Shown here: positions 6,280 through 40,801 of the stretch, in pieces
Numbering within the stretch: the stretch's first letter is position 1
Layout: every line of letters starts with the position of its first letter
Assembly: GCF_000744255.1 (NCBI RefSeq)
Contig: NZ_JQLO01000001.1
Coordinates: forward strand, 1,984,001-2,048,000
Source: Carnobacterium divergens DSM 20623
Lineage (GTDB): Bacteria; Bacillota; Bacilli; Lactobacillales; Carnobacteriaceae
Length of the DNA: 64,000 nucleotides
Direction of reading: 5' to 3'
Made by a program: the position numbers and the translations under genes
The notes under the pieces: model-generated
Databases searched by the model: none
Seen by the model: only the letters and a program-made list of their open reading frames with translations
What the model was told of the DNA's origin: nothing

Positions 6280-6493
6280 TTTATTACCAGCTTCTTTCTT
6301 TTTATTTTGATAGGTTATATTTATAAGATAACATCAAAAAAGCAATTTCCTTTCTCTATTTCCAGTCCATTTCGTCCCATTTTTGTTCAAAGTTCTATTT
6401 TTCACAAAGGGGTATTTAATAACAAAGAAGCTCCTAAGTTAGTGCTTATTTTTTGAATGCCTTTTCTTTCTTTGACGAATACTTGAAATACTG

Positions 6494-17193: not shown

Positions 17194-17742
17194 TTATAAG
17201 TGATCGGTTCCTGCTGGCAACCCTTTTTCAACATCAATCATAACTGTATCGATTACTTCATCATTTTCATCAAAAAAGATTAGGTTGACTGGATTGACAT
17301 TGTTTCTTAGTTTCCAGCCATCAATGCAATCAATTGTTTCTGATTGCCCAACATATTTATCCGCATTTTGAATCAACTCATTATCAGTGTCTGTTAAACT
17401 AGCATACTCAAAGTAGGCTTGCGAAATGTACGTATCTCCATCTGGCATAGCGGATGCTTGGCTAATGTCTAAATAAGTATCATTAGCAGACATCTCTTCT
17501 TCACTATTGTTTTTAAATGTATAATAAATAAGCACTGCTGGTAATGCTTCGTTATCCCGAACTACTTTATAGCCTGTAAGCTGCAATTCAAAAGTTTCTC
17601 CAGTAACGGTTTTATTTAATTTGTAAAACTTATCATAATTAAAGGCATTCTCAATAGTATTTGACTCTTTTTTCATTCTAGTACAACCTACCAATAAAAA
17701 TACCATAAAAAGAAATACGATGATTTTCTTTGACTTTCCCAC
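17194..17742 (-). CDS. Putative lipoprotein, DUF5067-like
   Basis: A 182-residue secreted protein with a signal peptide ending in the lipobox LLVGC (Cys 20), so it should be attached to the outer face of the membrane. The mature part is predicted beta-rich, with a conserved-looking segment (VLIYYTFKNNSEE, SQAYFEYASL) that resembles the DUF5067 immunoglobulin-like family of lactic acid bacteria. The GTG start at 17740-17742 follows GGGAGGG. It sits downstream of the giant surface protein gene, separated by a terminator, so it is probably transcribed alone. No function is assigned. Confidence 0.72.
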   Translation of the reverse strand: MGKSKKIIVFLFMVFLLVGCTRMKKESNTIENAFNYDKFYKLNKTVTGETFELQLTGYKVVRDNEALPAVLIYYTFKNNSEEEMSANDTYLDISQASAMPDGDTYISQAYFEYASLTDTDNELIQNADKYVGQSETIDCIDGWKLRNNVNPVNLIFFDENDEVIDTVMIDVEKGLPAGTDHL

Positions 17743-17815: not shown

Positions 17816-17861
17816 TAAAAATCAGTTCTTAGAAATGATTTCTCTAAGAACTGATTTTTTG
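17816..17861. terminator. Terminator of the giant surface protein gene
   Basis: A perfect AAATCAGTTCTTAGA/TCTAAGAACTGATTT hairpin lies between the lipoprotein gene and the end of the surface-protein gene, flanked by A- and T-runs. Confidence 0.9.
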
Positions 17862-17862
17862 A

Positions 17863-20800
17863 TTATCTAACTATTCTTGTTCGACGTTTATGCGTAAAGT
17901 ATAACGTAGACAAGCCTAATAATAATACTCCTACTTGTTGAATCAGTTGATTCCTCTCATCTTCCCCAGTTTGTGGCAGTTTTTGATTCACTGGCGGTGT
18001 TGGATTCATTGGCGGCAAAGGACTAGGTTGCGTGTTAGTTTGAGGTACTATCGGCTTAGTGACAATCGTTTGAACCTCATTACTATCTAAGTCTTGACCT
18101 TCTGTTATAGATGGATCATCCGAAACAAGAGAGGCAATATTTGAAATGGTTGTTGTCTCACTGGGAATATCTGTAATCTTCACTTGGAATCGAATAGTCA
18201 CACTTTGATTCCCTCGTAATCCTTCAACCATCACAGAAAGGTGACGTCCTTGCCAAATAGTATCATCTGCCAACTTAATGCTTTCACCTGTTGTATTAGT
18301 AACTGTTGTGCTGTCTGGAAGATAGGCAGTATGCTCTGGTATAGTATCTGTAACTTGACCAGACCACAGACCGCCATTGGGTCCATTTTTCACGACTAAT
18401 TCATAGGTTAATACCTCCCCAACTGTGGCATTTTTTTGATCGACCACTTTTAAAATTGATATTTCAGAGGCTATTTTATTGTCTACGGACGGATGTTGTT
18501 CAATTCGTGTTTCAGGTTGCCCAGCTACTTGAACTGCCGTACCAGTAACATCTGCTGTATTCAAGATAGTAGTGTTCTCAGCTACTTCTTGTCCAATCAG
18601 CACCTCAAAGGAAATAGCAGCTTTTTCACCACTAAGCAATCTGCCTACCTCAACTGTAATCGTTTGGCCAACAACATGTTCATCCCCTAACCGTTCTGAG
18701 TTTAAATGTAGGGTTCCTTTGATATAACTCAAGCCGTTTGGCAATTGATCTTGCATAACAACTTGATTGACGTTTGCTGGTCCCGTGCTGATATTTTCAA
18801 TCACAATTTCATAGCGTAATTTATCCCCTACTTTTACTGCTTTTCCACTGACATCTTCTGTTCCTTGGTAAGCTTTCTTAGTAGAATTTAATTTTCCTGG
18901 ACCAGCCTGTAGAATAAATTCTGTTTCATCTTCTACTGGCTCCGTTAGAACTCCGTCCCCATTTGCACCAATAAATGTTGCTTTATTAACAATCGCTTTA
19001 TCAAACTCAAGAGAGGTTACTAGAACCTTGAATTCAATGGTTAATTCTTCATTTTCTGCTAGCTTAATGTCTTTGATTGTTAACGAATTATTTTTCCAAA
19101 TACCTGCATCTGCAATGTCTTTATTTGCAATTTTAGTCGTATTTGGTTGGTAACGAACTCCTGCTGGTAACGTATCCGTCACTACACCATCTTGTAAGAA
19201 ACCTGCATTTTTGGCATTGCTAACAACCAAGCGGTACGTCAAAATAGTATTGGTAAAAGAATGCCCATTGAATTGAGGTGTTCCGTCTGTAACTGTTTTT
19301 ATAATGTTTGGTTCTGGTTGCGCATTATTTAAAACATTAGGTGTTTCTTTTAATTCCGTTTCTTTTTCAGGTTCTTCTGAATTGACAGCGGTCATTCCTT
19401 TTGCTGTTGCAATATTTGCAATAGTTCCACTTGCTTTATTGGTTATTTTCACATCAAATATCACAACTGCTTTTTCTCTTGATTTCAAGGTACCAATGTT
19501 CAATGATAAGAATTGTTTCTCTTGATTAACGGCATCATCACTTTGTTGAATCAATTGGTTATCTTTTTCTAAATAAAGAGTATTTGGCAAATAGGATACT
19601 CCACTTGGAAGTAAATCTTCAACAATAACATCATGTACTTCTGAAAGTTTTTTCTCGCTTTTATTTTCTACTATCACTTTATAGCGAATGGTGTCATTAA
19701 CATTAACTACTGTGTTATGAATGTTGTCACCATCTGATCCATCTGCATGAACGGCATAAACGGATTTAATCGCATCAATTTCACCTGGATCCGCAATAAC
19801 ATCAAATTTTGCACTGTCTTTTTGTTCCGTTATTGGATTATTGTAACTGTCTGTTCCGTTCATATAAGCAGTATTTAAAATATCTGTAACTACTTGCGGA
19901 ACAGCTACTTTTACTTTGAATTTGATTTCCATCATTTCGCCACCAGCCAATTCAATATTACTTAATTTGAATTGATTGTTTGTCCAACTAAGTTGATCGG
20001 TATTATCTTCGATAGAAACGCCATTTATTGTGGTTGTTCCAGGTTGGTACTGTACTTCTTTTGGTAAGTTGTCTTCAACCGTTCCGTTTTTCAACACACT
20101 CGCACCTACTTCATTATGCAAAACGAGTGTGTAGATTAGGATACTCTCATTAAATACTACTGTTTTATTTGTCGCATTTTCTTCGGTAACAGATTTTTTA
20201 ATGCTTGGTTTTGGATGAACTTCATTTTTAACTGAATTCGTTGGAATTTCTCCAATTTCTAAATTTTCACGATTTGGATCTTGTGGATCTGAGGGGGTTG
20301 GCGTCACAATCCCGTTAACTAAAGCTATATTGGTTAATAGTCCATCCGCCTTTTTATCCACGGTTACTTCAAAGCGAATAATCGCTTTTTCACCACTTAA
20401 CAGATGTCCTATCGCTAAGTTTAAATAGTCGTTTCCATTTGAATCTGTAATTACGTTATCTGCTACGGTTTTTCCATTGACGGTTGTGGTACCTTTGATA
20501 TAATTTAACCCCACTGGAATTGCATCTGTCACTACAATGTCGCGTACTTCAGAAATATCTAGCTCTGTATTGGTTACGATAATTTCATAGCATAAAGTAT
20601 CGCCAATCTTAACTACTTGATTTTCAATTGGCTCACCAGCTTTATTGTAGACCGCTTTGACGGGTTCAATCTTACCTGGTCGTGGAACTACGTTTAATTT
20701 AGCGGAATCTGAAGCTTCTTCGGATGGTAGATTGTCTTTATCGGTACCATTAAAGGTTGCTTTATTTACAATTCCTGCCGTTGCTTTAGCAACGGTTATT

Positions 20801-23800
20801 TTAGCTTTAAATGTAATCGTCATAAATTCACCTGAAGCTAATTCAATTTGATCAAATCTAAAATTGTTGCCATTCCAATAGTTTTTTTCAGCATCTTGCC
20901 CATTTATTTGAGTAGTTCCTTCTTGATAAATAACGCCATCTGGCAATTTATCTGTTACAACCCCGTTATAAAGGTGTCCACTTCCCTCTTCATTGCGTAC
21001 AATTAAGGTGTAGACTACTGTGTCTCCATTAAAGTTATTCTCTTGACTAACTGATTTTTCAATACTTGGTTTTGGTTTAGCTTCGTTCACTACTGGTGGT
21101 GTTTGACTACTATCTGGTTCAGCTGGCTCGTTTGGTTTAGGTGTAATTACCCCATTGGCTACAGCAATATTAGTTAATTTCCCACTCGCATTTGACATAA
21201 CTTCAACCTCAAAAGAAATAACCGTTTGTTCCTTGCTGGCTAAATGTCCAATTGAAACTTCAAGCAGTTGATTTCCTGGACTAGCAGGGTTTTCAAAAAT
21301 AAGTTCGTCGTCATTTGACATTAATTGATTATTAACAGTTAATGTATTTTTCACATATTTTAGACCTGTTGGAATAGCATCTTTTACAATCACATCACGT
21401 ACTTCAGAAAAAGGAGTCTCAGTAATGTTCGAGACACTAATTTCATAGCGAATTGTCTCGCCAACTTTAACCTTATGATTATTGATATCTGTGCCATCTT
21501 TCCCATAGACCGCTTTTTTGGCTTCTAGTTTGCCGGGACTGTTGATAATTGTAACCGTCACATCGTCTTTTTTAGGCGGTAGCTTGTTTCCGTCACCGTC
21601 TTCACCCACAACTGTTGCTTCATTGAGGATGTTCATTGGAACTGCAGTTGCCGCTACTTTAACGGTAAAACTAATCTTCATTTCTTGTCCACTAACTAAT
21701 TCAATATTTTCTTTTTTGAAAGTATTTCCTTGCCAATTTTCATCTCCTACTGACTTCCCATCAATAAAGGTTGATTTCGGTTTGTAAACAAGACCCTGTG
21801 GCAAGGAATCTTCTACCACACCATTTTTTAGTAACCCTGCTCCTGTTTGATTCGTTACAATTAACGTGTAGATTAACTCGTCTTCGTTAAATGCAGGTAG
21901 TGGTACCATCTCATGAGTTGTTTCATTTGTTGTGCCCACAGCTTTTACTGACTTTCTAATGGTTGGTTCAGGTTGAATCAGATTATTTACTGGTGGTGTT
22001 GTTTTATCACCAGTCGGCGTATCTGTTTCAGTTGGTGTCTGATTTGTTGTTCCATTTGCGATTGCAATATTTTTTAATGTTCCACTCGCATTTTTAGAAA
22101 CGACTACTTCAAAGGATACCGTTGCTGTTGCTAAACTTCCTAATGTACCGATTGGTAGATTTAAATGGTAGATTCCAGTTTTTGAATCTAATGTAATAGC
22201 ATCATCTTTTTGCAATACTCCATCTAAGGTTAACGAACCTGCTACATAAGTTAAACCAAATGGAATTTCATCTTTCAAGTGAACCTCTCGAACTTCGGAA
22301 AGAGGTGCTTCAGTTGTATTTGACACAATAATTTCGTAACGAATTGTGTCTGACACACTAACTTTCCCATCATTAATTGATTCACCCGCTTGGTTATAGA
22401 CTGCTTTTTTGGCTTCTAACTCGCCTGTATTGCTAATCACTTTAACAGGAACTTTGGCTTCAACCTTCTTAGTACCTTCGCCATTGACATCTTTACCTAG
22501 GAAGCTGGCTGTATTGGTAATTGTTTGAAGTTCTTTGACTTTTATTTTAACTTTAAAACGAATGGTCATTTCTTGATTCTCGATTAACTCAATATCTCTT
22601 TTATTAAAGATATTGTCTTTCCAATTGTCATCATTTACTTTTTTGCCATCGATTTCTGTCGAGCCCTCCACATAGGTAATTCCGACTGGTAAACGATCTT
22701 CAACTTCTCCAAAATACAATTTACCTGCGTTTTTTTCATTTTTGATGACTAAGGTATAGTAAAATTCATCGTCATTGAATGCAACACCTTGATTATCCAA
22801 CGATTTTGTAATGGATGGTGCAATTGGAACGCTATTTTTAACGGTTTCAGTTTCTGCTTTTGATGGTTTGGTAATGGTCAAATCATCTGGTTGCAAGGCT
22901 ACTTCCCCTTCGGATTGGGCTGTATTCGTGAATTCTCCACTAGCCGAATCAAGTACGATAACATCTAATAAAATTTCAATTGACTTACCACCTGTCAATT
23001 CTTTTAGTTCAACAGAAAGAGTTTCTTCCCCTTGATCATTTTTTGTTACTTTCGCAATCGCAGTATTATCCCCCACTACTTTCAACGTATTATCAACATA
23101 ATAAACGCTACTTGGTAACAGGTCACTTACTGTTATATTTTTAATAGTTGAAAGTGACTTGCCTTCGTTTTTCACTACAATTCTGTATTGAATTTGATCG
23201 CCAACTTGAAGTTTTTCTCCATTGATATTGGTTGCAATTTTCCCTGTAGAATATACAGCTTTTGTCGCGGACAGTACCCCTGGTGAAGCAACAATATCAA
23301 ATTTTGCTTCGGCTGTGTTGCCGATAACTTCTTTTTTATCTTTGTCTGTTCCTTTAATTGAAACTTTATTTACGATATCTGTTTTCAACTGTTCTGATTT
23401 CACTTTTACTTTAAAAAGAACTTTGAAGGATTCGTTTTCTGCCAAGGTAAATCCTGAAATTCTTAACTTTCCTTCTATCCACACATCTTGATCTTTTAAC
23501 TTTTCAATTTTTCCGTCTTCGTAATGAATCTCTGTACTTTCTGCAATATAACTTACTTCATCTGGTAATTTTTTATCCTCAATTTCGCCATTAAAAAGAA
23601 CTCCTGCATTTTTCCCATTGGCAACTGTTAAGGTATAAGTCAATGTATCTTCATTAAAAGTTTGCAAATTTTCATTTTCTTTTGCGTTACGAATCTCCTC
23701 ACCTACATTACGGCCCACTTCTTTTTTGATCGTTGGTTTTGGAGGCACATGATTTTGAACGCGGTCTGAATCATGTGTTTCAGCAGGTTTTGTTGGTTTG

Positions 23801-26800
23801 TCCTCTTCAGGTAACTTAGGATCCGTTGGTTCGGTAATGACATTTCCTTTTGAGGTTGCAATATTCGTTATTTCACCACTCGCTTCTTTTGTAACCGTCA
23901 CTTTGAATGTTAGTGTAGCAAATTCACCGCCTTTGAGCGTCCCAACTAAAGCATCAATGGCTTGCTTTTCAATGTTGATAGTGTCTTCATCTTTTAGAGC
24001 AGTGACGGTGTCTCCAATTGTTAACTCCAAACTATTGGGCACATAAGCCAATCCTTTTGGCAACTGATCCTGTAAGTGAACGTTTTTCACTTCAGTTGCT
24101 CTATCGCCTGTATTGGCTACGCTAATTTGATAAGCAATTGTATCATTAACTTGAACATTTCCATTGTTGATCGTGCTATCTAGCGAGCCATCTTCCGTTA
24201 AGCTATAAACTTCTTTCGTTGCTGCGAGTTTACCTGGACTTGGAACAAGTTCAAATTCTGCCTCAGCATCCTTTTCGTAATTTTTGGAATCCTTTCCTTC
24301 ATTACTTGTTCCCGTAATTTTCGCATAATTAATAATGGGTTTTTCAAATACAGCCTCTATCACTTTAACTTGGTATTGGATGGTAATGGTTTCTCCCTCT
24401 TTTAAAGTTAGTCCTGATAAGGAGAAATTACGCTCATTCCAATACTTGTCATTTTGAGCGCCTTCATGAATAACGCCATTTTGATCGATAATAACTGTGC
24501 TACCTGTTTCATAGGCCACTTCATCTGGTAGCTGATCTGTTACTTTGCCATTTACTAATAAACCGGCTTTTTTTGTATTGCTTATTACAAGTTCGTAATT
24601 TAAAACGTCATCTTTAAAAGCAAACTTACGATCAATTGACTTTGTGATTGTTGGATCTGGATCAACTACTGTGGTTGTACTTGAGTTGGGAGGGTTTAAA
24701 GAAATATCCGGCTGTGACGGTGTTTTATCAATAAATCCAACTACTTGCGCTTCATTTTTCAATGTTCCACTTGCTTGTTTCGTCACTCTAACATTAAATG
24801 TAACGACTGTTCGCTTGTCTAGTTCTTGATTGGTTCCTTGTAAATTCTTAATCTTAACAGTTAAAATAGGATGCATGGGATCTGCTGTATTCATTTCTGC
24901 ATCTGCATCTTCAACAACTTTTCCTGATCTAGTAACCGTTAACGTACCTTGCATATATTCTAAACCTTCTGGTATAACATCTTTGATTTCGATATCTCGA
25001 ACCGCCGTATTTTCATCTAATGGATTCCAAACAACAATTTGGTACTGAATAATGTCTCCAACAGCTACATTTTCTCCGTCATTAGATTCGCCAACAGCAC
25101 CATCCACAACTGGAAAGACAGATTTCTCTGATTCTAGTTCTCCTGGTTGGAAAACGAATCTTGTGTCTACTTTGTCTTTATCAGTTGTTTTAAAAAGTTT
25201 ATCTTTGTCGGTCCCACTAACTTCGGCCTCATTTTTCAAGATTTCCCCAGCAATTGACACATCTGGAATCACCTTAAAGGTAATGACTGCCTGTTGGGTA
25301 CGGTTCATTGTTAAATCACTAATGGTTAAAATATCTCGTCCTTCTGTATTTTGGCTCCATGAAGAAGTCACATTACGAAATTCTCTTTTCAAAGCTGGAT
25401 CTGTTATTAACTTTGTAGTGGGTTTTGTATCAATTATAATCGTAGCGTCTCCTAGTGGTTTTAAACCTGCTGGCAAGATATCGGTTATGACGCCATTATG
25501 AAGTGCTCCGGATTCTTCATCTAAGGTGACAACCAACCTGTATTCAAAGGGTTCTCCAACATAACCTACCGAATTAGCACTTTTTTGAATCTTAACGTTA
25601 GGTTTAATGTAGTTTTCTACTGAATTTGACGTGTAGTCAATAGACGCTCCCCATGAATTGTCAACAAAATCATTCTCTCTTACTTGTCCTTTTACTAATG
25701 CCGTATTTTCTAGAATCCCACTAGCATCTGGGGTTAATTCTACTTCAATTGTAATTAACATTCTCGCATCTTTAGGATCGTTTGTAATACTTAACAATTT
25801 ATTTCTAGCAATTCTAGATACTGCAATTGATAGTTCATTTCCTTTTAACTCAAATAATTTTGAATTAATTGGTTTCGCCCCATCAATAGAAACTTTAATT
25901 TTAGATGGATCACTTACATTAATTCCAGCTGGTAATGTGTCAATAATATCAGTAGGTTTAATTTGACTATAGAGTTCACCTATTGCCGTAATTTGTATAT
26001 CGTAACGCAACTTATTACTTCCAATAATAGTTGTTTTATTGTCTTTAATATCTGTAGTGACCCATTTTTCTGTTTGTTCTTTTGATTTTTCAAGAACTTC
26101 TACGGTTTTATCCACCTTTAAACTAATTGCTTTTTTAGGGTGAGCCATTACTTCAGCTTTATTTGCAAATTTTATAGATGCTTTTCCATTTTTATCAATC
26201 CCCATACCATTAATAGACATGGTGTACATCTGCATAAATGCTTTTGAATCTCTAGGAGTCATAATCCATTCTGTTACTAATTCTAATTTTTCGCCCGCTC
26301 CTAAAGGTTCTTTTATAGTAAATCCATTATTTTCATCTGTTAAGTCTATTTGATAGTCCAAAATATAGCCTTCTTCAACACTGCCTTGCATTTGCCAAAC
26401 ATCGTCATCATTCAAAGAAATTCGATCAACTTCAACATTATCTTTGTATCTAATTAGAACTGGATTAGGCAACTTCCTTAAACCACGTGCACTAGCTTGT
26501 GGAATACCTGCATCTGAAGGAATGGAAATGAAGTGCGCTTTGACAACATCTGTTCCATCTGTATAAATCATTTCTTGTCTGAATGTTACCTTATCTCCAT
26601 AATAACCTTCAATTATATCCGCTGTTACTTTATTTTCAATAATTGGAGCAAGCGCAATTAACCCTAATTCATTTGGGTTTCCTTCACTAGCATTACTAAT
26701 TCTGTTGGCCTCTCCTTCAAATTCAAACTTATATTGTTCACCGTTATCTCCTGTTATTAAATATCCAGATGCCTCTAATATCATAATAGAATATTTTGAT

Positions 26801-28119
26801 GCGTCTTTGTTCTCTCTTAAAGGTAAATAGGCTACACCTTTATCATCTGTATAAATAGTATAAATTTCATCATCTGCTAGGACATTTTTCACACCTAGTT
26901 TAACATTAGGGATTGTCATTCCTGATAAGCTATCTTTCGTGACAACCTTTGTTGCTTGAGGATAAGTCCCTTTCAGTATGAATTCTGAAGAAGAAACACT
27001 TTTTTTATTAGAGGTTTCATAGTAGATATCAAAATTCGGTTTAAAATCATTAAACCCTGAATGTAAATTAAAAATTGAATCGTAATTAACTCCAAGTTTT
27101 AAAAGCAAGGAAAAATCATAAGTGTACGTACCCGCAGGAAGATTATCTCCTATAAATCCATCCTCCATATCTTCATAAAAATCATAATATGCATCATTTG
27201 AGTTTCCAGAAGAATCTGTATACGTAATATCTATAGGGGTTGTAATCCCAGTATCTGTCCAAAATGAATCCAACCCCAAATTGTTATCAAATCTTAACTC
27301 ATTGAAGTCTTCTTCACTTGTAATCGTCATTCTAAATCGGACTTCTTTTTTATAATCACTTGGAGTCGCTAGTGTAGGATTCGTTATTTCATTTCCACTT
27401 TCATCAATCACTGCGAAACTTGTTTTTACATCTGCAGATTTAACTTGTTTTGTTTTTTCTAGGTTCTCTGATTCCTTTGAATTTTCTACTTTTTCTTCTT
27501 TATTTACAACAACCGTTAGCGGTCGTGCAGTATATGTTTGTCCATCTCTCGTGGTTTGAACTGTAATATTATGACTTCCTGACTCTACTCCTTTAAACAC
27601 CAATAAAACTTTTTTAGGTTTTTGTTCTTTTTCTTCAACGGGTGGTGTATTTTCTATTTTAGAAGCAACTTCAGCTTCTTCTTTAGAAAGTAATCCTGCT
27701 TTTTCTGCAAGTGTCGTTGCTTCTTGTTGAACCTCTTCTTGCGTTTCATTCGTTTCTACTGTTGGTGACGTTACCCAGTTCACTAAAATATTCCCAGCTT
27801 CTTTACTATACGCCACTGTCACTTGGTTCTCTTGATTTGCACTATTCGTTGCTTCTTGATCTAACTCTAACCCTGGCAAAATCGTAACTGATAATTGCTG
27901 ATCCGATGGATTATCAGATTTGATAACTGTCGTTAATTTTTCTCCCAATAAAATAGAAGCTTGGTCTAGTTTCTCTCCCGCTTCATTTGTAAAATATAAA
28001 TCTTCAATTTGATTATTAACCCCGTCAGCAAATGCTTTGACACTTGTGGTTGCTGTTGCAATGACTTGAATAAACATGCTCAAAGTCAATAACCAATGAA
28101 TTAATTTGCTTTTTTTCAT
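17863..28119 (-). CDS. Giant LPxTG cell-wall protein with alternating DUF11-like repeats
   Basis: A 3418-residue secreted protein. Residues 1-31 form a signal peptide (likely cut after SVKA). A unique N-terminal region of about 650 residues includes a Cna-B/prealbumin-like segment near 390-480. From about 650 to 3330 come some 18 DUF11-like modules of two alternating kinds, one opening with motifs like PKPSIKKSV and the other with PGKLEAKKAVY. A Pro-rich linker leads to the sortase signal LPQTG (3381-3385), a hydrophobic stretch and the basic tail HKRRTR. It should be anchored to peptidoglycan by sortase A as a long stalk. AAGGAG precedes the ATG. A ligand or adhesive role is inference; no frameshift is seen across 10.3 kb. 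Confidence 0.93.
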   Translation of the reverse strand: MKKSKLIHWLLTLSMFIQVIATATTSVKAFADGVNNQIEDLYFTNEAGEKLDQASILLGEKLTTVIKSDNPSDQQLSVTILPGLELDQEATNSANQENQVTVAYSKEAGNILVNWVTSPTVETNETQEEVQQEATTLAEKAGLLSKEEAEVASKIENTPPVEEKEQKPKKVLLVFKGVESGSHNITVQTTRDGQTYTARPLTVVVNKEEKVENSKESENLEKTKQVKSADVKTSFAVIDESGNEITNPTLATPSDYKKEVRFRMTITSEEDFNELRFDNNLGLDSFWTDTGITTPIDITYTDSSGNSNDAYYDFYEDMEDGFIGDNLPAGTYTYDFSLLLKLGVNYDSIFNLHSGFNDFKPNFDIYYETSNKKSVSSSEFILKGTYPQATKVVTKDSLSGMTIPNVKLGVKNVLADDEIYTIYTDDKGVAYLPLRENKDASKYSIMILEASGYLITGDNGEQYKFEFEGEANRISNASEGNPNELGLIALAPIIENKVTADIIEGYYGDKVTFRQEMIYTDGTDVVKAHFISIPSDAGIPQASARGLRKLPNPVLIRYKDNVEVDRISLNDDDVWQMQGSVEEGYILDYQIDLTDENNGFTIKEPLGAGEKLELVTEWIMTPRDSKAFMQMYTMSINGMGIDKNGKASIKFANKAEVMAHPKKAISLKVDKTVEVLEKSKEQTEKWVTTDIKDNKTTIIGSNKLRYDIQITAIGELYSQIKPTDIIDTLPAGINVSDPSKIKVSIDGAKPINSKLFELKGNELSIAVSRIARNKLLSITNDPKDARMLITIEVELTPDASGILENTALVKGQVRENDFVDNSWGASIDYTSNSVENYIKPNVKIQKSANSVGYVGEPFEYRLVVTLDEESGALHNGVITDILPAGLKPLGDATIIIDTKPTTKLITDPALKREFRNVTSSWSQNTEGRDILTISDLTMNRTQQAVITFKVIPDVSIAGEILKNEAEVSGTDKDKLFKTTDKDKVDTRFVFQPGELESEKSVFPVVDGAVGESNDGENVAVGDIIQYQIVVWNPLDENTAVRDIEIKDVIPEGLEYMQGTLTVTRSGKVVEDADAEMNTADPMHPILTVKIKNLQGTNQELDKRTVVTFNVRVTKQASGTLKNEAQVVGFIDKTPSQPDISLNPPNSSTTTVVDPDPTITKSIDRKFAFKDDVLNYELVISNTKKAGLLVNGKVTDQLPDEVAYETGSTVIIDQNGVIHEGAQNDKYWNERNFSLSGLTLKEGETITIQYQVKVIEAVFEKPIINYAKITGTSNEGKDSKNYEKDAEAEFELVPSPGKLAATKEVYSLTEDGSLDSTINNGNVQVNDTIAYQISVANTGDRATEVKNVHLQDQLPKGLAYVPNSLELTIGDTVTALKDEDTINIEKQAIDALVGTLKGGEFATLTFKVTVTKEASGEITNIATSKGNVITEPTDPKLPEEDKPTKPAETHDSDRVQNHVPPKPTIKKEVGRNVGEEIRNAKENENLQTFNEDTLTYTLTVANGKNAGVLFNGEIEDKKLPDEVSYIAESTEIHYEDGKIEKLKDQDVWIEGKLRISGFTLAENESFKVLFKVKVKSEQLKTDIVNKVSIKGTDKDKKEVIGNTAEAKFDIVASPGVLSATKAVYSTGKIATNINGEKLQVGDQIQYRIVVKNEGKSLSTIKNITVSDLLPSSVYYVDNTLKVVGDNTAIAKVTKNDQGEETLSVELKELTGGKSIEILLDVIVLDSASGEFTNTAQSEGEVALQPDDLTITKPSKAETETVKNSVPIAPSITKSLDNQGVAFNDDEFYYTLVIKNEKNAGKLYFGEVEDRLPVGITYVEGSTEIDGKKVNDDNWKDNIFNKRDIELIENQEMTIRFKVKIKVKELQTITNTASFLGKDVNGEGTKKVEAKVPVKVISNTGELEAKKAVYNQAGESINDGKVSVSDTIRYEIIVSNTTEAPLSEVREVHLKDEIPFGLTYVAGSLTLDGVLQKDDAITLDSKTGIYHLNLPIGTLGSLATATVSFEVVVSKNASGTLKNIAIANGTTNQTPTETDTPTGDKTTPPVNNLIQPEPTIRKSVKAVGTTNETTHEMVPLPAFNEDELIYTLIVTNQTGAGLLKNGVVEDSLPQGLVYKPKSTFIDGKSVGDENWQGNTFKKENIELVSGQEMKISFTVKVAATAVPMNILNEATVVGEDGDGNKLPPKKDDVTVTIINSPGKLEAKKAVYGKDGTDINNHKVKVGETIRYEISVSNITETPFSEVRDVIVKDAIPTGLKYVKNTLTVNNQLMSNDDELIFENPASPGNQLLEVSIGHLASKEQTVISFEVEVMSNASGKLTNIAVANGVITPKPNEPAEPDSSQTPPVVNEAKPKPSIEKSVSQENNFNGDTVVYTLIVRNEEGSGHLYNGVVTDKLPDGVIYQEGTTQINGQDAEKNYWNGNNFRFDQIELASGEFMTITFKAKITVAKATAGIVNKATFNGTDKDNLPSEEASDSAKLNVVPRPGKIEPVKAVYNKAGEPIENQVVKIGDTLCYEIIVTNTELDISEVRDIVVTDAIPVGLNYIKGTTTVNGKTVADNVITDSNGNDYLNLAIGHLLSGEKAIIRFEVTVDKKADGLLTNIALVNGIVTPTPSDPQDPNRENLEIGEIPTNSVKNEVHPKPSIKKSVTEENATNKTVVFNESILIYTLVLHNEVGASVLKNGTVEDNLPKEVQYQPGTTTINGVSIEDNTDQLSWTNNQFKLSNIELAGGEMMEIKFKVKVAVPQVVTDILNTAYMNGTDSYNNPITEQKDSAKFDVIADPGEIDAIKSVYAVHADGSDGDNIHNTVVNVNDTIRYKVIVENKSEKKLSEVHDVIVEDLLPSGVSYLPNTLYLEKDNQLIQQSDDAVNQEKQFLSLNIGTLKSREKAVVIFDVKITNKASGTIANIATAKGMTAVNSEEPEKETELKETPNVLNNAQPEPNIIKTVTDGTPQFNGHSFTNTILTYRLVVSNAKNAGFLQDGVVTDTLPAGVRYQPNTTKIANKDIADAGIWKNNSLTIKDIKLAENEELTIEFKVLVTSLEFDKAIVNKATFIGANGDGVLTEPVEDETEFILQAGPGKLNSTKKAYQGTEDVSGKAVKVGDKLRYEIVIENISTGPANVNQVVMQDQLPNGLSYIKGTLHLNSERLGDEHVVGQTITVEVGRLLSGEKAAISFEVLIGQEVAENTTILNTADVTGTAVQVAGQPETRIEQHPSVDNKIASEISILKVVDQKNATVGEVLTYELVVKNGPNGGLWSGQVTDTIPEHTAYLPDSTTVTNTTGESIKLADDTIWQGRHLSVMVEGLRGNQSVTIRFQVKITDIPSETTTISNIASLVSDDPSITEGQDLDSNEVQTIVTKPIVPQTNTQPSPLPPMNPTPPVNQKLPQTGEDERNQLIQQVGVLLLGLSTLYFTHKRRTRIVR
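18400..26160 (-). repeat. Eight tandem DUF11 superrepeats of about 0.9 kb inside the surface protein gene
   Basis: The PG-x-L-x-x-x-K-x-VY module start recurs near 25110, 24205, 23250, 22400, 21510, 20650, 19750 and 18860, giving a period of about 850-955 bp. Each unit pairs one module of the PxPSIxKSV kind with one of the AxKxVY kind. Copies are diverged in DNA and protein, so the array is old rather than a recent amplification. An additional degenerate module lies at each end. Confidence 0.85.
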
Positions 28120-28153: not shown

Positions 28154-28348
28154 TCATTCCTCATTTTTTTTATCTTCATCTACGACTGTAACAGTTGCTG
28201 GATTGGTTTTCTGCTCTAGTTTTTCTTCCGTTATCTCACTAGAAACTTCACTTTTTTCTGGTGAACTTTCTTTATTTTTATGATTCTGACAAGCTCCCAA
28301 GCTTACCAACAACAGACAAAGTAATAAAATATTGATTAATTTTTTCAT
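28154..28348 (-). CDS. Small lipoprotein upstream of the giant surface protein
   Basis: A 64-residue protein with a signal peptide and the lipobox LVSLGAC (Cys 20); the mature 45 residues are a highly charged, low-complexity Glu/Lys/Ser stretch. GGGGGGAAG precedes the ATG. It ends 34 nt before the giant LPxTG gene in the same direction with no terminator between, so both are likely one transcript. It may be a surface-retained accessory peptide; no family is recognised and its function is unknown. Confidence 0.65.
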   Translation of the reverse strand: MKKLINILLLCLLLVSLGACQNHKNKESSPEKSEVSSEITEEKLEQKTNPATVTVVDEDKKNEE

Positions 28349-28710: not shown

Positions 28711-28747
28711 ATAAAAAAGATACCTTCCAAAAATAGGAAAGTATCTC
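28711..28747 (-). terminator. Terminator of the alpha-glucoside PTS operon
   Basis: GATACTTTCC and GGAAGGTATC (minus strand) form a stem followed by TTTTTT, about 90 nt behind the IIBC stop codon. The stem resembles three other terminators in this window. Confidence 0.75.
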
Positions 28748-28840: not shown

Positions 28841-30259
28841 TTAGCGTTCTTCACTTATCATCAATTCTTGTGGAACTGCAAATAGATACGTTAAAACAAA
28901 AGCAACAGCAAATGTTAACACTCCAACTAAGATATAGGTAATTAATTGATAAGGATCATAAATATACATCAAGGGAGATAAAATCACGGCTAGCCCATAG
29001 GAGTTCGCTTGAACGCCTAAAATAGAAAGCAATGCTCCACCAACGGCTGAACAAATTAGCATCACTAATAACGGTTTCATTCCATATCGGAGAGTAATTC
29101 CAAATAATGCTGGTTCGCTAACACCTAATAATTGTGTGATTCCTGCACTTGTTCCAATCACCTTGATATTTTTATTTTTGGCTTTAGTACTAATTGCAAA
29201 ACAAACTGCTGCATTCGCAAATCCATACATCGCACATAGAGTAATCAAAGGATTGAAACCTGTTGACGCTAATAATGTCGTTTCAATCATAATAAATAAA
29301 TGATGCATTCCCGTCATTACGGCTAACGGATATAAAAAACCAATAATCAATCCGCCAATTCCAAAAGGAACATGAATCAAGCCTTCAACTACATAAACTA
29401 AACCATTTTCAACAAAGTGCAACAGTGGTCCCAATATAAGTAATCCTGTTAGCATCATTACAAAAATAACGACAAAAGGGGTGAACATTAAATCTAGTGA
29501 ATCTGGCATTCTTTTCCGTAAAATCCGCTCTAATTTTGCGCCTAAAATCCCAATGACTAATGCCGTCAAAACACTTCCTTGATATCCCACAATTGGTATA
29601 AAGCCAAATGCAATAATCGGATTAACGCCACTGTTAATATCTGCTACAGAATATGCATTAGGAAGCATTGGCGACACTAACATCAATCCTATGACAAATC
29701 CAATAATTGGTGTTCCTCCAAATTTTTTAAATGCGGACCAACAAATTAATGCTGGTAAAAAAGCAAAAACAGTGTCTGTTAAAACACTCATCAACGTTAA
29801 CATATACGCAGGTATATGGTCGGCTGAAGTTCCAAAAAATCCCAAGACTGTATCATTTAACACAACACCTTTTAGTCCGAGAAATAGACCCGTTGCAACA
29901 ATTCCCGGAATAATTGGAATGAAGATATCCGCTAACGTACGAATCCCTCGTTTGATTGGATTGCCTTCTTTTTTGATTTCTTCTAAATTGGTAACCTTGT
30001 CTTGAAAGACAGGATTATTTTGAATAATCGACTCGTATACTTTATTTACAATTCCAGTTCCTAAAATAATTTGGTACTGTCCAGCATTAAAAAAGACCCC
30101 TTTGACTTGATCAATTTTTTCTATCTCTTGGTCCTCAATCAGCATCCGGTCCTTAACTTCTAGTCGTAAACGAGTTGCACAATGTGTTATCGATAGAATA
30201 TTTCCTTCGCCAACTACTGCAAGAATGTCTTCGCCTATCTTTTTATAATCTGTCGCCAT
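28841..30259 (-). CDS. PTS EIIBC permease, trehalose/sucrose (glucose superfamily) type
   Basis: A 472-residue sugar-specific PTS protein. Residues 1-85 form the IIB domain with the phosphorylated Cys 27 in the motif THCATRLRL; residues 105-460 form a IIC channel with about ten membrane helices and the GVSEPALFG loop. No IIA domain is fused, so phosphate must come from a separate glucose-type IIA. It imports and phosphorylates a disaccharide, most likely trehalose or another alpha-glucoside, for the downstream-pathway glucosidase encoded next to it. GGAGGG precedes the ATG, 20 nt after the glucosidase gene. The exact sugar cannot be fixed from sequence. Confidence 0.87.
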   Translation of the reverse strand: MATDYKKIGEDILAVVGEGNILSITHCATRLRLEVKDRMLIEDQEIEKIDQVKGVFFNAGQYQIILGTGIVNKVYESIIQNNPVFQDKVTNLEEIKKEGNPIKRGIRTLADIFIPIIPGIVATGLFLGLKGVVLNDTVLGFFGTSADHIPAYMLTLMSVLTDTVFAFLPALICWSAFKKFGGTPIIGFVIGLMLVSPMLPNAYSVADINSGVNPIIAFGFIPIVGYQGSVLTALVIGILGAKLERILRKRMPDSLDLMFTPFVVIFVMMLTGLLILGPLLHFVENGLVYVVEGLIHVPFGIGGLIIGFLYPLAVMTGMHHLFIMIETTLLASTGFNPLITLCAMYGFANAAVCFAISTKAKNKNIKVIGTSAGITQLLGVSEPALFGITLRYGMKPLLVMLICSAVGGALLSILGVQANSYGLAVILSPLMYIYDPYQLITYILVGVLTFAVAFVLTYLFAVPQELMISEER

Positions 30260-30279
30260 GTTGTTCCCTCCAAAATTTT

Positions 30280-31938
30280 CTATTTTACTAAAATACTTTG
30301 ATACGGTGCAAGTTTGATTTCTTTGCCTAGTAGCTGCGTCGAGTGAGATGTTAAATAAAGCACTTCCACTTCTTTTTCTACTATCAGCGTTTCTGACACA
30401 GGACTCAAATTGGTAAAAGAGTATATCTTTTCTCCTCCTAATTCTCGATAATACCCAATAATAGAATCTGGCAATTCCTTCAAGAAATGAATAGCGCCAG
30501 TTTTTAAAATTGGACTTATTGGCGAGTTTTGTCTCAACTCAATCATTTTTTTATAAAATTCTAACACTGTATTTTTCGCAGCGTTAATCGTTGGATATTC
30601 TTCAGTCATCGCTAACCATGGTTGATGATTTGAAAAACCACCATATTGGCTATTGTCCCATGGCATCGGTGTCCGAGAGTTATCACGGCTTCTCAAGTTA
30701 ACAAAATTAAGTGCCTCTTTTTCAGAAATTCCCTCTTGTATTGCGCGGTAAAAATTATCAATGCTTGAGATATCATCAAATTGTTTCATATGATGTCGCT
30801 CGGCATTAATCATCCCTAATTCTTGACCTTGATAGATGAATGGCGTTCCTCTTAAAAAGAAATACATTGCACCAATTCCCTTAGCAGCTTCGGCTGTTTG
30901 AAATTCTTTCTTAACAAGCTTAGACAATGCTCTTGGTTGGTCGTGATTTTCAATAAAATTGGCTCCCCAACCTGCATTTTGTAGCGCTTCCTGAGATTGA
31001 ATTATTAATTCTTTAAATTCTTTTGTAGTCCAGTTGGTTCGTTTAAACCAATCAGATCCAGATTCCACATCAATATCTGCATAATGGAAATCAAAAATCA
31101 TTGAAAAATAACCCTCTTCTCCAATAAAATCTGAAAATTCATCGTAAGCCACTCCTGGAGCTTCTCCAACAGTTACACAATTGTATTTCTCAAAAGTCTC
31201 TTTCTTTAATTCATTCAGGAAAAATTCGATTCCTGGTTGATTTCTAGTCTTATGCTTGCAAGACACGAGACCGTCTACACCATCAGCAGGTAGACTTTCA
31301 TAGTTCTGATCCTTCTTGATAAACGTAATCGAATCAATACGAAACCCTGCAATTCCCTTTTCAAGCCAACGATTAATCATCTGATACAACTCTTGGCGTA
31401 GCTCTGGATTTTCCCAATTTAAATCGGGCTGCTTTTTATCAAAGACATGCAAGTAGTAGCTCTCTTCTCCTGGAACTTTTTCCCAAACAGATCCTCCAAA
31501 AATCGAACGCCAATTATTCGGACGTTCCTTCCCTTCTTTAAAGATGTAATATTCTCGATATTTACTTTTTTTGTCGGCCAATGCTTGCTGAAACCAAGTG
31601 TGTTCGTCTGAGGTATGATTGATGACAAGATCTAGCATCAGCTTAATCTCTAGTTTTTTTGCTTCTGCTACTAATTCATCAAACTCTTCCATTGTTCCAA
31701 ATTCAGGGTTAATGCCTTCAAAATCTGCAATATCATAGCCGTTGTCAACCATTGGTGAGGTAAAAATTGGGCAGATCCAAAGAGTTGTGATGCCTAATTC
31801 TTTTAGATAGGGTAACTTTTCTTTGATTCCTTTGATGTCTCCTACACCATCATTATTTGAATCTTTAAAACTCTTGGGATAGACTTGGTAAATAACTTCT
31901 TCTTTCCACCAATCTTTTGTTGTTTTGCTCTTTTTCAT
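30280..31938 (-). CDS. GH13 alpha-glucosidase (oligo-1,6-glucosidase / phospho-alpha-glucosidase like)
   Basis: A 552-residue cytoplasmic glycoside hydrolase of family 13. The three catalytic residues are visible: nucleophile Asp 202 in GFRIDSI, acid/base Glu 259 in VTVGEAP, and Asp 333 in ENHDQPR; the DLVINHTSDEH and QPDLNWENPE motifs are typical of the oligo-1,6-glucosidase/trehalose-6-phosphate hydrolase group. Next to a PTS permease it probably cleaves the imported phosphorylated disaccharide into glucose and glucose 6-phosphate. It differs from classic TreC around the ENHDQ motif, so trehalose 6-phosphate is only one candidate. AGAGG precedes the ATG. Confidence 0.85.
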   Translation of the reverse strand: MKKSKTTKDWWKEEVIYQVYPKSFKDSNNDGVGDIKGIKEKLPYLKELGITTLWICPIFTSPMVDNGYDIADFEGINPEFGTMEEFDELVAEAKKLEIKLMLDLVINHTSDEHTWFQQALADKKSKYREYYIFKEGKERPNNWRSIFGGSVWEKVPGEESYYLHVFDKKQPDLNWENPELRQELYQMINRWLEKGIAGFRIDSITFIKKDQNYESLPADGVDGLVSCKHKTRNQPGIEFFLNELKKETFEKYNCVTVGEAPGVAYDEFSDFIGEEGYFSMIFDFHYADIDVESGSDWFKRTNWTTKEFKELIIQSQEALQNAGWGANFIENHDQPRALSKLVKKEFQTAEAAKGIGAMYFFLRGTPFIYQGQELGMINAERHHMKQFDDISSIDNFYRAIQEGISEKEALNFVNLRSRDNSRTPMPWDNSQYGGFSNHQPWLAMTEEYPTINAAKNTVLEFYKKMIELRQNSPISPILKTGAIHFLKELPDSIIGYYRELGGEKIYSFTNLSPVSETLIVEKEVEVLYLTSHSTQLLGKEIKLAPYQSILVK

Positions 31939-31961
31939 TTTTTATACCTCTTTTCATTTTG

Positions 31962-31975
31962 TGGTATCGATATCA
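31962..31975. promoter_or_regulatory. LacI/CcpA-type operator before the glucosidase gene
   Basis: TGGTATCGATATCA is an imperfect palindrome (12 of 14 positions symmetric) 24 nt upstream of the glucosidase start. A nearly identical site, TGGTATCGATTTCA, stands before the lacI gene. A shared site in front of the regulator and the structural genes suggests it is bound by the operon's own LacI protein; it is also close to the cre consensus. Confidence 0.65.
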
Positions 31976-31989
31976 TATTAAAGATATAA

Positions 31990-32019
31990 GAAAACCCGTA
32001 TATGTTTAAACGGATTTTC
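31990..32019 (-). terminator. Hairpin overlapping the lacI stop codon
   Basis: On the minus strand GAAAATCCGT pairs with ACGGGTTTTC around the lacI stop, followed by a weak T-rich stretch. It may partly terminate lacI transcription or set the ratio of regulator to downstream enzymes. Confidence 0.45.
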
Positions 32020-33004
32020 TTTGAACTAATGTTAATTCAAGTTGTGATTGATCTACTTGGTACGTTGTTTCTTCAATGAGCGAAATCAATAACTTCGTGG
32101 ATTCTGCACCTAATGCGGCAACAGGTTGATTAATCGTTGTTAGTGGAACGGCCAGTAGTGAAGTAAATGGCTGGTTATCAAAGCCCATGATTGCTATATC
32201 TTCAGGAACTTGAAGCTTTTGCTGAAGAGTGTATTCTAAAATCCCCATCGCTACCTCATCACTATTTGTAAAAATAGCATCTGGTCGATTGCTCTCAGGC
32301 AACTCGATTAGTTGCTTTGCAACTTGATGGCCATCTTCAATTGTGTGTACTTGTTGAAAAATCCATTCTTTCTTAATAGCTAATTTTTGCTCAAGCATCG
32401 CACGTTCAAAGCCTTGCGTCCGCGTTTTTCCATGTCCCTTTGTCGTTAATGTTCCACCTGTACAATAGGCAATTTTCTGATAATTTTTTTTAATCAAAAA
32501 TTGAATCGCTTCATATGTCGCTTGCTCTTGATTGGTTATGACCTGAGGTACTGCTGCTTCTGGTAGTTGTTCATTGCAAAAAACAATGGGACCAAAAGTT
32601 TGATAATCTTCTATCATTTTTGCATCGCCTTCAACTGAGCACATAATCAATCCATTAATAACACTCTGCTTCAACATTTCCAGCATCTTCATTTCTGCAT
32701 CTGAATCATCATAGGTTTGCATAATCAAAACATTATAGCCATGCTCCTTTGCTTGCTTTTCTATGGCATCCACCAAATAAGAAAAAAATGGGTTGGTGAT
32801 TCTGGATACTAAAATACCAATCATTGTTCCTTTTTTTGAACGTAGCTGAGTAGCGATTGAGCTAGGGGTATAATTTAGCTCCTCCATTGCTGCTTTAATT
32901 CGCTTTTTCTTGTCGTCAGAGATATAAGGATGTTGGTTTAAATACCTTGAAACGGTGGAAACTGAAAGATCAGCCCTTTTTGCTACATCTTTAATCGTCG
33001 CCAT
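32006..33004 (-). CDS. LacI family repressor of the alpha-glucoside operon
   Basis: A 332-residue regulator with an N-terminal LacI HTH (TIKDVAKRADLSVSTVSRYL, residues 3-22) and hinge, followed by a periplasmic-binding-protein-like sugar domain (about 60-330). The ATG at 33002-33004 has GGAG 9 nt upstream and is preferred over a TTG two codons earlier. It heads the operon for a GH13 glucosidase and a PTS permease, which it should repress until the sugar or its phosphate binds. Trehalose operons more often use GntR-type TreR, so the LacI type argues for some caution about the substrate. Confidence 0.87.
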   Translation of the reverse strand: MATIKDVAKRADLSVSTVSRYLNQHPYISDDKKKRIKAAMEELNYTPSSIATQLRSKKGTMIGILVSRITNPFFSYLVDAIEKQAKEHGYNVLIMQTYDDSDAEMKMLEMLKQSVINGLIMCSVEGDAKMIEDYQTFGPIVFCNEQLPEAAVPQVITNQEQATYEAIQFLIKKNYQKIAYCTGGTLTTKGHGKTRTQGFERAMLEQKLAIKKEWIFQQVHTIEDGHQVAKQLIELPESNRPDAIFTNSDEVAMGILEYTLQQKLQVPEDIAIMGFDNQPFTSLLAVPLTTINQPVAALGAESTKLLISLIEETTYQVDQSQLELTLVQRKSV

Positions 33005-33021
33005 TTTCAATAACTCCTTTA

Positions 33022-38934: not shown

Positions 38935-38986
38935 TTAACGTTTTGAGAATTGTGAAGCTTTACGGGCTTTTTTAAGACCTGGTTTT
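38935..38986 (-). repeat. Attachment site (distal copy): 52-bp duplicate of the rpsI 3' end
   Basis: This sequence is identical over 52 bp to 42489-42540, the last 16 codons plus stop of rpsI. No S9 coding sequence precedes it. It is the attachment-site copy at the far end of the island. Confidence 0.93.
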
Positions 38987-39110
38987 GTATAATAGTTTAA
39001 TAAATAACTTCAATTTCTTTATATTTATTATTTTGCTGCACAATCATGTAAAGTCTATTTTAACGAATTACAATAATTTTCTTATAGATCGTCCCACGCA
39101 ATACTACTCT

Positions 39111-40772
39111 TTATTTACCACCATCTATATGGTCTTTAAATCCTTTTTGGATCAATTTTCTAGCAGGACTTAACTTATCATCCTTTTTATATTCTATTAA
39201 ATAATCTTCAAGCAGTTCGATACATTCATGAATAGATTTTTTTGGATATTTTTCCATGATGTATATAATGTACAAATATTTTTGATGATATTCATCATAT
39301 TTAGAATCTATATAGTCTTTTTCTATCTCATAATATTTTATTATCAGATTAGCTAAAAATTCAAAATCTAATGTTTCTACATCAAAAATATCATCATAAT
39401 ATTTTTCAAATAACGCTTTTTTCTGATTAGTTGCTCTATCTGGATAACCTTTATAAGAGTATAATAACTGAGCCGTTTTCTCCATTGATATTCGGTGTAT
39501 ATATTTCTCATCTTTTTTCCCCGTATCACCAGATTTGCGAACATATAAAATACCCATTGCTTCTAAATATGCTCCTATTTGAATTTGGTAATTACTTATT
39601 GACTTCAAATCAATAGAAGATATTGCATTTTGACTATTAGTATATTCCGCTATATCATTAGTCAATTCTTTATCTGTTTCTGTTTGAAATAATCGTACTA
39701 ACACCTCGGCATTCGCTAAGCTTTTTTCATCAAACTGACTTTTGTTAAACTCATATATAGTTCTTAAAGTTTGTCCGCCATTAACAATTTGAAAACCATT
39801 AATTGTACATTCAAATTTTTTATTTCCATTTTTATCTCCAGCAGTAATATTTTTTGCTGTCATTGTTATTCCGTTATTAAACATAAAAAACTTATTAGGA
39901 TCTTCTACAATAGTTTTAATAATATTTTTATTGAATTTTGTAGTAGCTCCTAAGTACCCTCTTACATTATCAAATAATAAACTTAACTCTATTTCTTGTC
40001 CTTGTAATTTACTATAATCTGCATTTATATTATTTCTTAACTCTTCATTCTTACAAGTAATTCTAATTAATTCTGCTAAAGGTAGTTTAATTAGATAAGA
40101 TTTACTAGATGACAATTTATCAATCTCATATGTCATTACAGAAGTACTATCCACCATAAATTTCGCACTTAAATCATCAGGAAACCCTGAAATATATGAA
40201 ACAATATCATCTAAAACTACAGTTTTCACTTTCATACCATAACTATCTTTAAATTGATCCACCGTTGGATTCTCTAATTCCAAAGCCCGATTTTCATTGG
40301 AAACCATAAATAATTCAATAGTCCAAACATCTGTAGAATTTAAAGCTTCAATTATTTTATTAATTTTATTTTTAGTTATTGATGTGACCTTATCTGTATT
40401 TTCATTAGCGATATGAATTAAAAATTTGGTAACATCTATCATATCACCCAATTCTTGTCCTTTTTTTACTTTAAAGCTATCTCTATATTTAAAGTTAAAC
40501 AGTTGTATCTTTCTATCTTCCTCGTCAATATTAACTGCATCAACACCTAAATCATTGTTTTTTTGTTTATAAACAACGCTTCTGAAATCTGTATCAATAA
40601 CCATATCTACTAAATCACTTATTTCTTTAACATTAGTTATACACTCCAATGCTAATAAATAAAATCCAAATCTAGAACCATTTTTCTCCATTTGCTCAGG
40701 AGTCAAATTTAAAAATTCTGAATATTTTTTAGATTTCATATTTACCGTTTTAAAATCGTTAATATTAGCCAT
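39111..40772 (-). CDS. AIPR family abortive phage resistance protein with nuclease-like N-terminus
   Basis: A 553-residue protein and the only intact cargo gene of the island. The AIPR hallmarks are present in order: FMFNNGITM (297-305), FQIVNGGQT (327-335) and TNSQNAISSIDL (378-389). The N-terminal part contains LGVDAVNID and QLFNFKYRD, where Asp 78 and the NFK at 93-95 resemble a PD-(D/E)xK nuclease core with Asn in place of the usual acidic residue or Gln. AIPR proteins are linked to abortive infection against phage. AAAGGAG precedes the ATG. A TACAAT -10 at 40802-40807 lies about 30 nt upstream. Antiphage function here is inference. Confidence 0.85.
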   Translation of the reverse strand: MANINDFKTVNMKSKKYSEFLNLTPEQMEKNGSRFGFYLLALECITNVKEISDLVDMVIDTDFRSVVYKQKNNDLGVDAVNIDEEDRKIQLFNFKYRDSFKVKKGQELGDMIDVTKFLIHIANENTDKVTSITKNKINKIIEALNSTDVWTIELFMVSNENRALELENPTVDQFKDSYGMKVKTVVLDDIVSYISGFPDDLSAKFMVDSTSVMTYEIDKLSSSKSYLIKLPLAELIRITCKNEELRNNINADYSKLQGQEIELSLLFDNVRGYLGATTKFNKNIIKTIVEDPNKFFMFNNGITMTAKNITAGDKNGNKKFECTINGFQIVNGGQTLRTIYEFNKSQFDEKSLANAEVLVRLFQTETDKELTNDIAEYTNSQNAISSIDLKSISNYQIQIGAYLEAMGILYVRKSGDTGKKDEKYIHRISMEKTAQLLYSYKGYPDRATNQKKALFEKYYDDIFDVETLDFEFLANLIIKYYEIEKDYIDSKYDEYHQKYLYIIYIMEKYPKKSIHECIELLEDYLIEYKKDDKLSPARKLIQKGFKDHIDGGK

Positions 40773-40801
40773 ATACTTCTCCTTTTAATACTTTTTCATC
40801 C

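Follow-up and report, generated by a model that had tools for sequence, protein, structure and literature searches.

The 64,000-nucleotide stretch of DNA analysed here (the window) encodes a giant surface protein whose stalk is made of two kinds of DUF11-type module, A and B, in strict alternation, and this alternation recurs in four families, whereas other DUF11 arrays are mostly of a single type. The class of adhesin stalks and the alternation of CLIPPER-type domains are already known; it is the recurrence of the strict order, and its contrast with the single-type arrays, that we did not find in the open-access literature. Both kinds of array occur within one order and are directly comparable, a clean natural setting in which to ask what the alternation of two isopeptide-domain types is for. 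With a probability of about 75%, we read the giant as a fibrillar adhesin anchored by sortase, its stalk locked by covalent bonds.

The gene of the giant occupies positions 17863-28119 on the minus strand, with its ATG at the 28119 end preceded by AAAGGAG, and encodes 3418 amino acids. An earlier note on this DNA had given the reading frame, length and coordinates exactly and had left the strand unstated; its estimate of about eight A-B pairs with a period of about 0.9 kb, and its LPQTG anchor, are borne out by the layout that follows, in which all features lie on the minus strand. The head comprises residues 1-661 (26137-28119) and includes a signal peptide at residues ~1-31 (28027-28119), read by eye, where the head model has a helix at residues 2-31. 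The stalk has the form B0-(A-B)x8-A9, that is nine A and nine B modules: the diverged B0 (residues 662-840; 25600-26136) is followed by A1 (25141-25599) and B1 (24658-25140), A2 (24232-24657) and B2 (23740-24231), A3 (23278-23739) and B3 (22822-23277), A4 (22423-22821) and B4 (21970-22422), A5 (21532-21969) and B5 (21073-21531), A6 (20674-21072) and B6 (20212-20673), A7 (19783-20211) and B7 (19315-19782), A8 (18895-19314) and B8 (18469-18894), and finally by A9 (residues 3218-3353; 18061-18468). From the start of A1 to that of A9 there are 2377 residues, which divided by eight gives a period of 297 residues, or 891 bp. In the tail (17866-18060), the LPQTG sorting motif lies at 17965-17979, and the C-terminus matches the LPXTG anchor model TIGR01167 (NCBIfam). 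A terminator-like hairpin of 19 pairs (17817-17859) stands directly after the stop codon and another (28717-28747) between the upstream PTS gene and a small ORF described below, both being consensus matches only.

The segmentation was done twice, by motifs and then by module HMMs, and all 18 modules were assigned by motifs, HMMs and a residue triad, A5, B5 and A6 also by a structure model. Two of the 48620 possible orders of nine A and nine B modules alternate strictly, a figure given as a description and not as a p-value, the modules not being independent. For 17 modules, all but B0, the HMMs separated A from B by 71-134 bits; they had been built with modules from the window and from two relatives, G001 and G002, so that there they are a consistency check and a real test only for other proteins. 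In a midpoint-rooted tree of 50 modules from these three proteins (25 A, 25 B), the two types formed separate clades (supports 0.977 and 0.883), which, together with the double segmentation, supports the two distinct module types proposed before. Among the copies in the giant, identity was 22-50% between A modules and 18-50% between B modules. At the DNA level, the direct repeats of at least 30 nt in the gene form five families, with copies 63-78% identical to their reference, and the sole array that Tandem Repeats Finder reported in this gene is a small one of period 18 in the tail.

Both module types are DUF11/TIGR04226 domains and are probably self-crosslinking. A Lys-Asp-Asn triad was invariant in all modules (41 of 41 A, 39 of 39 B) of five proteins, those of the window, G001, G002, G346 and G342, as the earlier note had thought worth checking. 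The only invariant columns of the alignment of 41 A modules were K6, Y20, D40 and N123, and those of the 39 B modules K10, Y45, D66, P69 and N144. Above the cut-offs, the whole protein matched TIGR01451 in 14 stretches, TIGR04226 in 11 and Pfam DUF11 (PF01345), since renamed CLIPPER (PMC12617251), in 10. At E 0.001, TIGR01451 matched 37/41 A and 35/39 B modules and TIGR04226 33/41 and 24/39, B0 of the window matching none of the profiles; DUF11 matched 36/41 A and 35/39 B, and DUF7507 7/41 and 13/39. As both types match DUF11, these two Pfam models fail to separate A from B.

The structure of an A-B unit was predicted with confidence: the AF2 model of A5-B5-A6, made from a 34-row alignment, reached pLDDT 94.7 and pTM 0.80, with every residue at 70 or above. 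In each module the Lys lies in the first strand, the Asp in a middle one and the Asn in a late one, which matches the order Lys 715, Asp 748, Asn 806 described for DUF11 in the crystal structure 9IFR (PMC12617251) and was counted in favour of an isopeptide stalk. The model agreed with the CLIPPER domain 9ifr (VIA) with Z 12.3 and rmsd 2.7 over 119 aligned residues, a CnaA-like beta-sandwich by prediction. The best matches were the C-terminal Ig domains of PrgB (8beg; Z 14.9, 356 aligned), where the rmsd of 11.9 reflects a chain of similar domains and no single rigid fit, and of antigen I/II (3qe5; Z 14.6, 363 aligned, rmsd 12.6), with an identity in the structural alignments of only 14-15%. 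Since integrin chains rank among the top matches, the fold is a common one and its match alone says little. A PDB sequence search with the whole protein gave one chance match only (E 0.49).

To follow the alternation in relatives, an A-B-A profile was searched against 395 genomes of the order, 22 of which matched at E ≤ 1e-35, and 149 genomes of the phylum, 7 of which matched at E ≤ 1e-12. Sixteen further loci were classified, from 10 of the 17 further genomes of the order, 5 of the 6 further genomes of the phylum and a second locus of the host; as the top of the A-B-A search, this sample leans towards A-B-like stalks. Alternating arrays were found in eight proteins (that of the window, L007, L008, L021, L022, L023, L053 and L054; families f1, f2, f7 and f9), L023 and L053 coming from one genome. 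Three loci (L055, L056 and L060; f8) have a single A-B or B-A pair. Arrays that are only or mostly B-like were seen within the order in L057, L058, L059, L061 and L062 (f2), and outside it in L047-L050, which showed many low margins and no alternation; L051 (aaaB) and L052 (one module) were too short to classify. Because these other arrays are mostly single-type, alternation is no general product of DUF11 arrays or of the module HMMs. The triad was complete in 22/23 A and 18/20 B modules of six further alternating or A-B-bearing loci. In ten other, mostly single-type loci it was scored complete in 12/12 A-like and 10/101 B-like segments, from which no loss of the triad can be concluded, since the Lys column was gapped in 69 of the latter, often with the match starting after the Lys.

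The number of repeats was compared in two relatives. G001, whose DNA is 97% identical to that of the host over two test stretches of 12 kb, has a giant of 3416 residues with the same 18 modules in unchanged order, and the distant G002 one of 2703 residues with 14 modules (B0, A1-B1 ... A6-B6, A7). G346 and G342, which belong to another family, carry homologues of the head and an array B0-A-(B-A)x6-A. In the module tree, the modules of host and G001 grouped position by position, and B0, A1 and the last A grouped with their counterparts in G002 (supports 0.999, 0.932 and 0.823). Orthologues at the same position, a synonymous divergence of up to ~1.0 and a dN/dS of ~0.18 overall agree well with the long-term maintenance that had been argued from the diverged copies. 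Between host and G001, synonymous divergence, for which four-fold sites were also used, was ~0.98 in residues 1-235, 0.38 in 236-385, 0.07-0.25 from residue 386 to B3, 0.59-0.94 from A4 to A7, 0.44-0.60 from B7 to A9 and 0.38 in the tail; the corresponding values for three genes flanking the giant were 0.04-0.06, and the lipoprotein gene downstream had 0.25. Given the genome background of 97% identity, this mosaic is likely to come from recombination with diverged alleles. The dN/dS of the single segments was 0.06-0.50 and stays low, so that the exchanged parts are under constraint. Strong divergence is not unique to the giant gene, as six other genes, at 1.1-10.1 kb of the window, likewise share no more than 77-86% identity between host and G001. 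The mosaic could also mean that the giant is an immune target or has a shielding role.

The head had been called atypical, a description that holds in so far as it reached no Pfam cut-off (best E 0.013, with no recognised adhesive domain) and that fits less well with a low-confidence model resembling the ordinary Ig folds of adhesins and pilins. A PDB search with the head profile gave two chance-level matches (E 0.44 and 0.49). Two scans of genome contigs with the head, aimed at named relatives, returned no match, and neither did tblastn against plasmids with the head or with modules A2-A4 as query. The model, built from five sequences, is weak (pLDDT 68.3, pTM 0.38), with strands over most of its length, and all the fold matches given here are to be read with this in mind. 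Across the whole head, antigen I/II C123 was matched (VIA) with Z 12.0 but rmsd 33. Residues 231-491 matched EbpB (VIA; Z 10.9, rmsd 8.6, 209 aligned), and residues 491-661 matched TTHA1873 (VIA; Z 11.7, rmsd 2.7, 135 aligned) and the collagen-binding domains of RspB (Z 10.1, rmsd 3.7, 133 aligned) and ACE (Z 9.5, rmsd 3.8, 132 aligned). The modelled head thus looks like an Ig-like adhesin architecture, which is no proof of a ligand. The idea that residues 491-661 form a crosslinked domain was dropped, the fitting Lys and Asn not being conserved in the alignment, as judged by eye. The head profile matched 12 of the 395 genomes of the order: nearly the whole head in five (the host G000, G001, G002, G346 and G342), the first 97-151 residues only in G023, G161, G215, G378 and G210 (E 1.8e-17 to 1.1e-4), and only an inner stretch of ~65-80 residues in G249 and G043.

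The giant has features of a fibrillar adhesin, namely the signal peptide read by eye, the stalk domains and the wall anchor. We picture its action as follows. The protein would be exported, and its 18 DUF11/CLIPPER modules would fold, each closing a Lys-Asn isopeptide bond catalysed by the Asp; the locked modules would give a rod resistant to stretching and to proteases; sortase would join the giant to the wall at LPQTG; and the rod would hold the 661-residue Ig-like head, likely the binding part in adhesion, away from the wall. A long reach of the stalk beyond the wall is plausible.

In SasG, too, the stalk is made of two alternating domain types, E and G5. SasG and the other periscope proteins are likewise single-chain, wall-anchored stalks, and are described as having highly identical repeats in variable number (PMC9704523), whereas the giant lacks highly identical tandem repeats, its copies being diverged and equal in count to those of G001. 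The report on CLIPPER domains describes tandem CnaA-like domains with a Lys/Asp/Asn triad in long surface proteins with a sorting signal, and the stalk in the window is alike in triad, tandem domains and sorting signal; the same report notes that DUF11 and DUF7507 often alternate in tandem (PMC12617251), whereas here both alternating types fall under DUF11 and the order is strict over 18 modules. A 3404-residue protein specific to E. faecalis subspecies B, listed with DUF11, D2 isopeptide and LPXTG domains and of nearly equal length, has as its best match the Carnobacterium divergens protein IV74_GL000625 (A0A0R2HW93), at 31.8% (PMC12502612). E. faecalis EF2224, an LPxTG protein with DUF11 repeats from a survey of surface proteins, has, by its description, four copies (table) or five (text) against 18 here (PMC3059304), and a giant adhesin of Mobiluncus is described as having likewise Ig domains and intramolecular crosslinks (PMC10619420).

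Whether the alternation serves a function at all has to be weighed against a simpler origin, since once one A-B pair exists, unequal crossing-over adds only whole pairs and the order would be a by-product. We give this explanation real weight, though we place it below even odds. L023 contains a run of five 810-bp units with 98% identity (794-798 of 810 bases against the first unit), which shows that duplication there proceeded by whole A-B pairs, and the array would grow by pairs as in this relative; in G002 the middle expanded independently, A3-A5 and B2-B4 clustering within the protein. Co-duplication of pairs inside the window protein found no significant support, as the similarities of A and B were not significantly correlated (Mantel r 0.30 and 0.37 in two registers, reached by 1597 and 842 of 10000 permutations). 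A by-product would not readily keep its order across modules diverged to 18-50% identity and across four families, the exceptions being confined to the ends of arrays (A-A C-terminally in L021 and L022 and, with a weak first A, at the beginning of L054), and the mostly single-type arrays (L057-L059, L061, L062 and L047-L050) imply that loss of a module should sometimes be tolerated. The pair is at most a candidate functional unit: what stands of that suggestion is a unit of duplication in L023 and an arrangement conserved in four families, and the Mantel test in the window protein was not significant. On the functional reading, A and B probably differ in their contacts to the next module, alternating neighbours packing best. 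That the module number is merely an artefact of assembly, which the earlier note had named as a danger to the repeat count, is of negligible probability: nothing for this gene speaks for it, the related L023 contig ending inside its 98% identical array being the nearest case, and against it the modules are at most 50% identical with no long near-identical repeats, which makes a collapse unlikely, the gene is complete in a genome of one contig (2,619,222 bases) where the DNA of the region was found once, plus one 43-base match, and 18 modules are also present in G001.

As to function, the stalk might be a spacer or shield that, like SasG, repels cells, phages or antibodies or hides shorter adhesins, with a non-adhesive head. 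The lack of a recognised adhesive Pfam domain in the head would suit this, and SasG stalks of at least 50 nm are described as blocking binding by a neighbouring adhesin (PMC9704523); however, the first 100-150 residues of the head recur in more other surface proteins than any other part of it, which a spacer tip would not need, although they may serve export or folding, and we consider the shield unlikely. A subunit of a sortase-polymerised pilus is very unlikely: TIGR04226 is named after the D2 domain of the pilin RrgB, and the pilin domains EbpB, RrgB and SpaD are among the fold matches of the stalk, but no sortase gene accompanies the locus as in sortase-C pilins, the seven sortase matches of the genome all lying outside the window with the nearest at ~141 and ~181 kb from the giant gene, and 18 modules are already present in one chain. 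The wall-anchored adhesin remains our preferred reading.

Directly upstream of the giant gene, across a gap of 34 bp, lies a 64-residue ORF with a hydrophobic start (28154-28348, minus strand), a putative lipoprotein with the lipobox LGAC, a charged linker and the C-terminal KTNPATVTVV. Homologues of 63-81 residues occupy the matching place in G001, G002, G346 and G342. Others were found in G254 (65 residues, 9 bp upstream of the alternating L054 giant), in G024 (53 residues, downstream and overlapping the stop of the A-B-bearing L056 ORF by 4 bp) and in G023 (79 residues, 142 bp upstream of an 1819-residue protein with an LLKTG end and three B modules). The gene, of 53-81 residues, is therefore present in 8 of the 395 genomes, always beside a gene for a large DUF11-bearing surface protein, a regularity to be read with the fact that seven of the eight were found via such neighbours, five beside giants and those of G254 and G024 beside known stalk loci, while the G023 member was picked by ORF size alone, as one of four so picked. 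A profile including the signal part matched 347 of 395 genomes, mostly longer frames read as signal peptides, the five training genomes (E ≤ 1.3e-25) standing apart from all others (E ≥ 2.9e-8); as it was unspecific, the search was repeated with the mature part only. The eight-member mature profile matched nine genomes of the 395, at one place each: the eight known members, from which it was built (E ≤ 1.1e-11), and G317, a marginal match in a broken frame (E 6.9e-4). In this small set, with a search seeded from neighbours, no such gene was found apart from a stalk-type gene in the 395 genomes. Six stretches were fetched on weak matches or for their neighbour, and only L075 gave a new member by a large surface protein; L076, L079 and L080 had none beside such a protein, L077 was cut by the contig end and L078 is the same as L056. 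The L075 protein (824-6283) has an LPXTG-like end and three B modules spread among other repeats, with the small lipoprotein gene upstream. Alternation does not require the small lipoprotein, since L053 and L023 alternate although no such ORF was found upstream of them.

The lipobox Cys after the hydrophobic segment, in a box read by eye, is invariant in all eight members, as are one Asn and one Val. Of 30 loci searched with a lipobox pattern, four yielded the small ORF; in L008, L054 and L056 it escaped the pattern and was found by inspection, and G002 has the less usual box IGVGC, which the pattern missed. Against G001, the 64-residue ORF had a dN/dS of 0.27 over 60 codons, and three of the small lipoproteins matched no Pfam or NCBIfam model at cut-off. 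Their C-terminal strand, [KE][TS]N-x-[AV]-[TE]-[VI]-x-V, resembles the Asn strand of the modules, N-x-A-x-x-x-G; compared with shuffles, the likeness reached ~0.017, uncorrected, in three of the eight sequences and failed in the other five, in two of which the best place was not the motif in register. All modules of the five best-studied giants have their own Asn, leaving none as an acceptor, and with such weak statistics the idea of a covalent tag was rejected. From the gene neighbourhood, the small lipoprotein would most likely help assemble or retain the giants at the membrane; that it is a dedicated, membrane-tethered maturation partner, acting by strand complementation, as an export chaperone or as a SpyTag-like tag, seems quite improbable. 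We did not find such a neighbour of giants in the open-access literature. The table of E. faecalis subspecies B proteins also lists a 64-residue membrane protein matching C. divergens IV74_GL000624, in a row separate from that of the 3404-residue protein and with no stated link, so that its pair and that of the window are compared by table description only (PMC12502612); the consecutive tags IV74_GL000624 and IV74_GL000625 suggest a gene pair of the window type in C. divergens. A small lipoprotein beside giants may give a handle on the membrane assembly of very large wall proteins.

Some features of the neighbourhood and of other loci were also noted. Downstream of the giant, a gene for a DUF5067 lipoprotein-like protein (17194-17742) has a counterpart at the corresponding place in G001. 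Upstream, at 28841-33010, there are genes for a PTS EIIBC, an alpha-glucosidase and a LacI-like regulator, with no BLAST match in the G001 stretches fetched. A perfect 51-bp direct repeat at 38935 and 42489 brackets a 3.55-kb unit (38935-42539) carrying an integrase-like ORF and a gene for an AIPR protein, which scored far under the cut-off for MzaE of an anti-phage system; the copy at 42489 forms the 3' end of what was read as the gene of ribosomal protein S9. In the G001 stretch this repeat occurs three times, with 0-2 mismatches, and probably frames two such units in tandem. Elsewhere in the host, another large surface protein is encoded by L052 (475-4350; G000:C1 ~163.5-167.3 kb), close to a sortase match at 170775; it combines a pectate-lyase-like adhesive domain with a single B-like module. 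Finally, an Mga-domain regulator gene at 4903-6279 of the window, which falls well short of the AcpB/EbpR/MafR family cut-off, is possibly a regulator of surface proteins.
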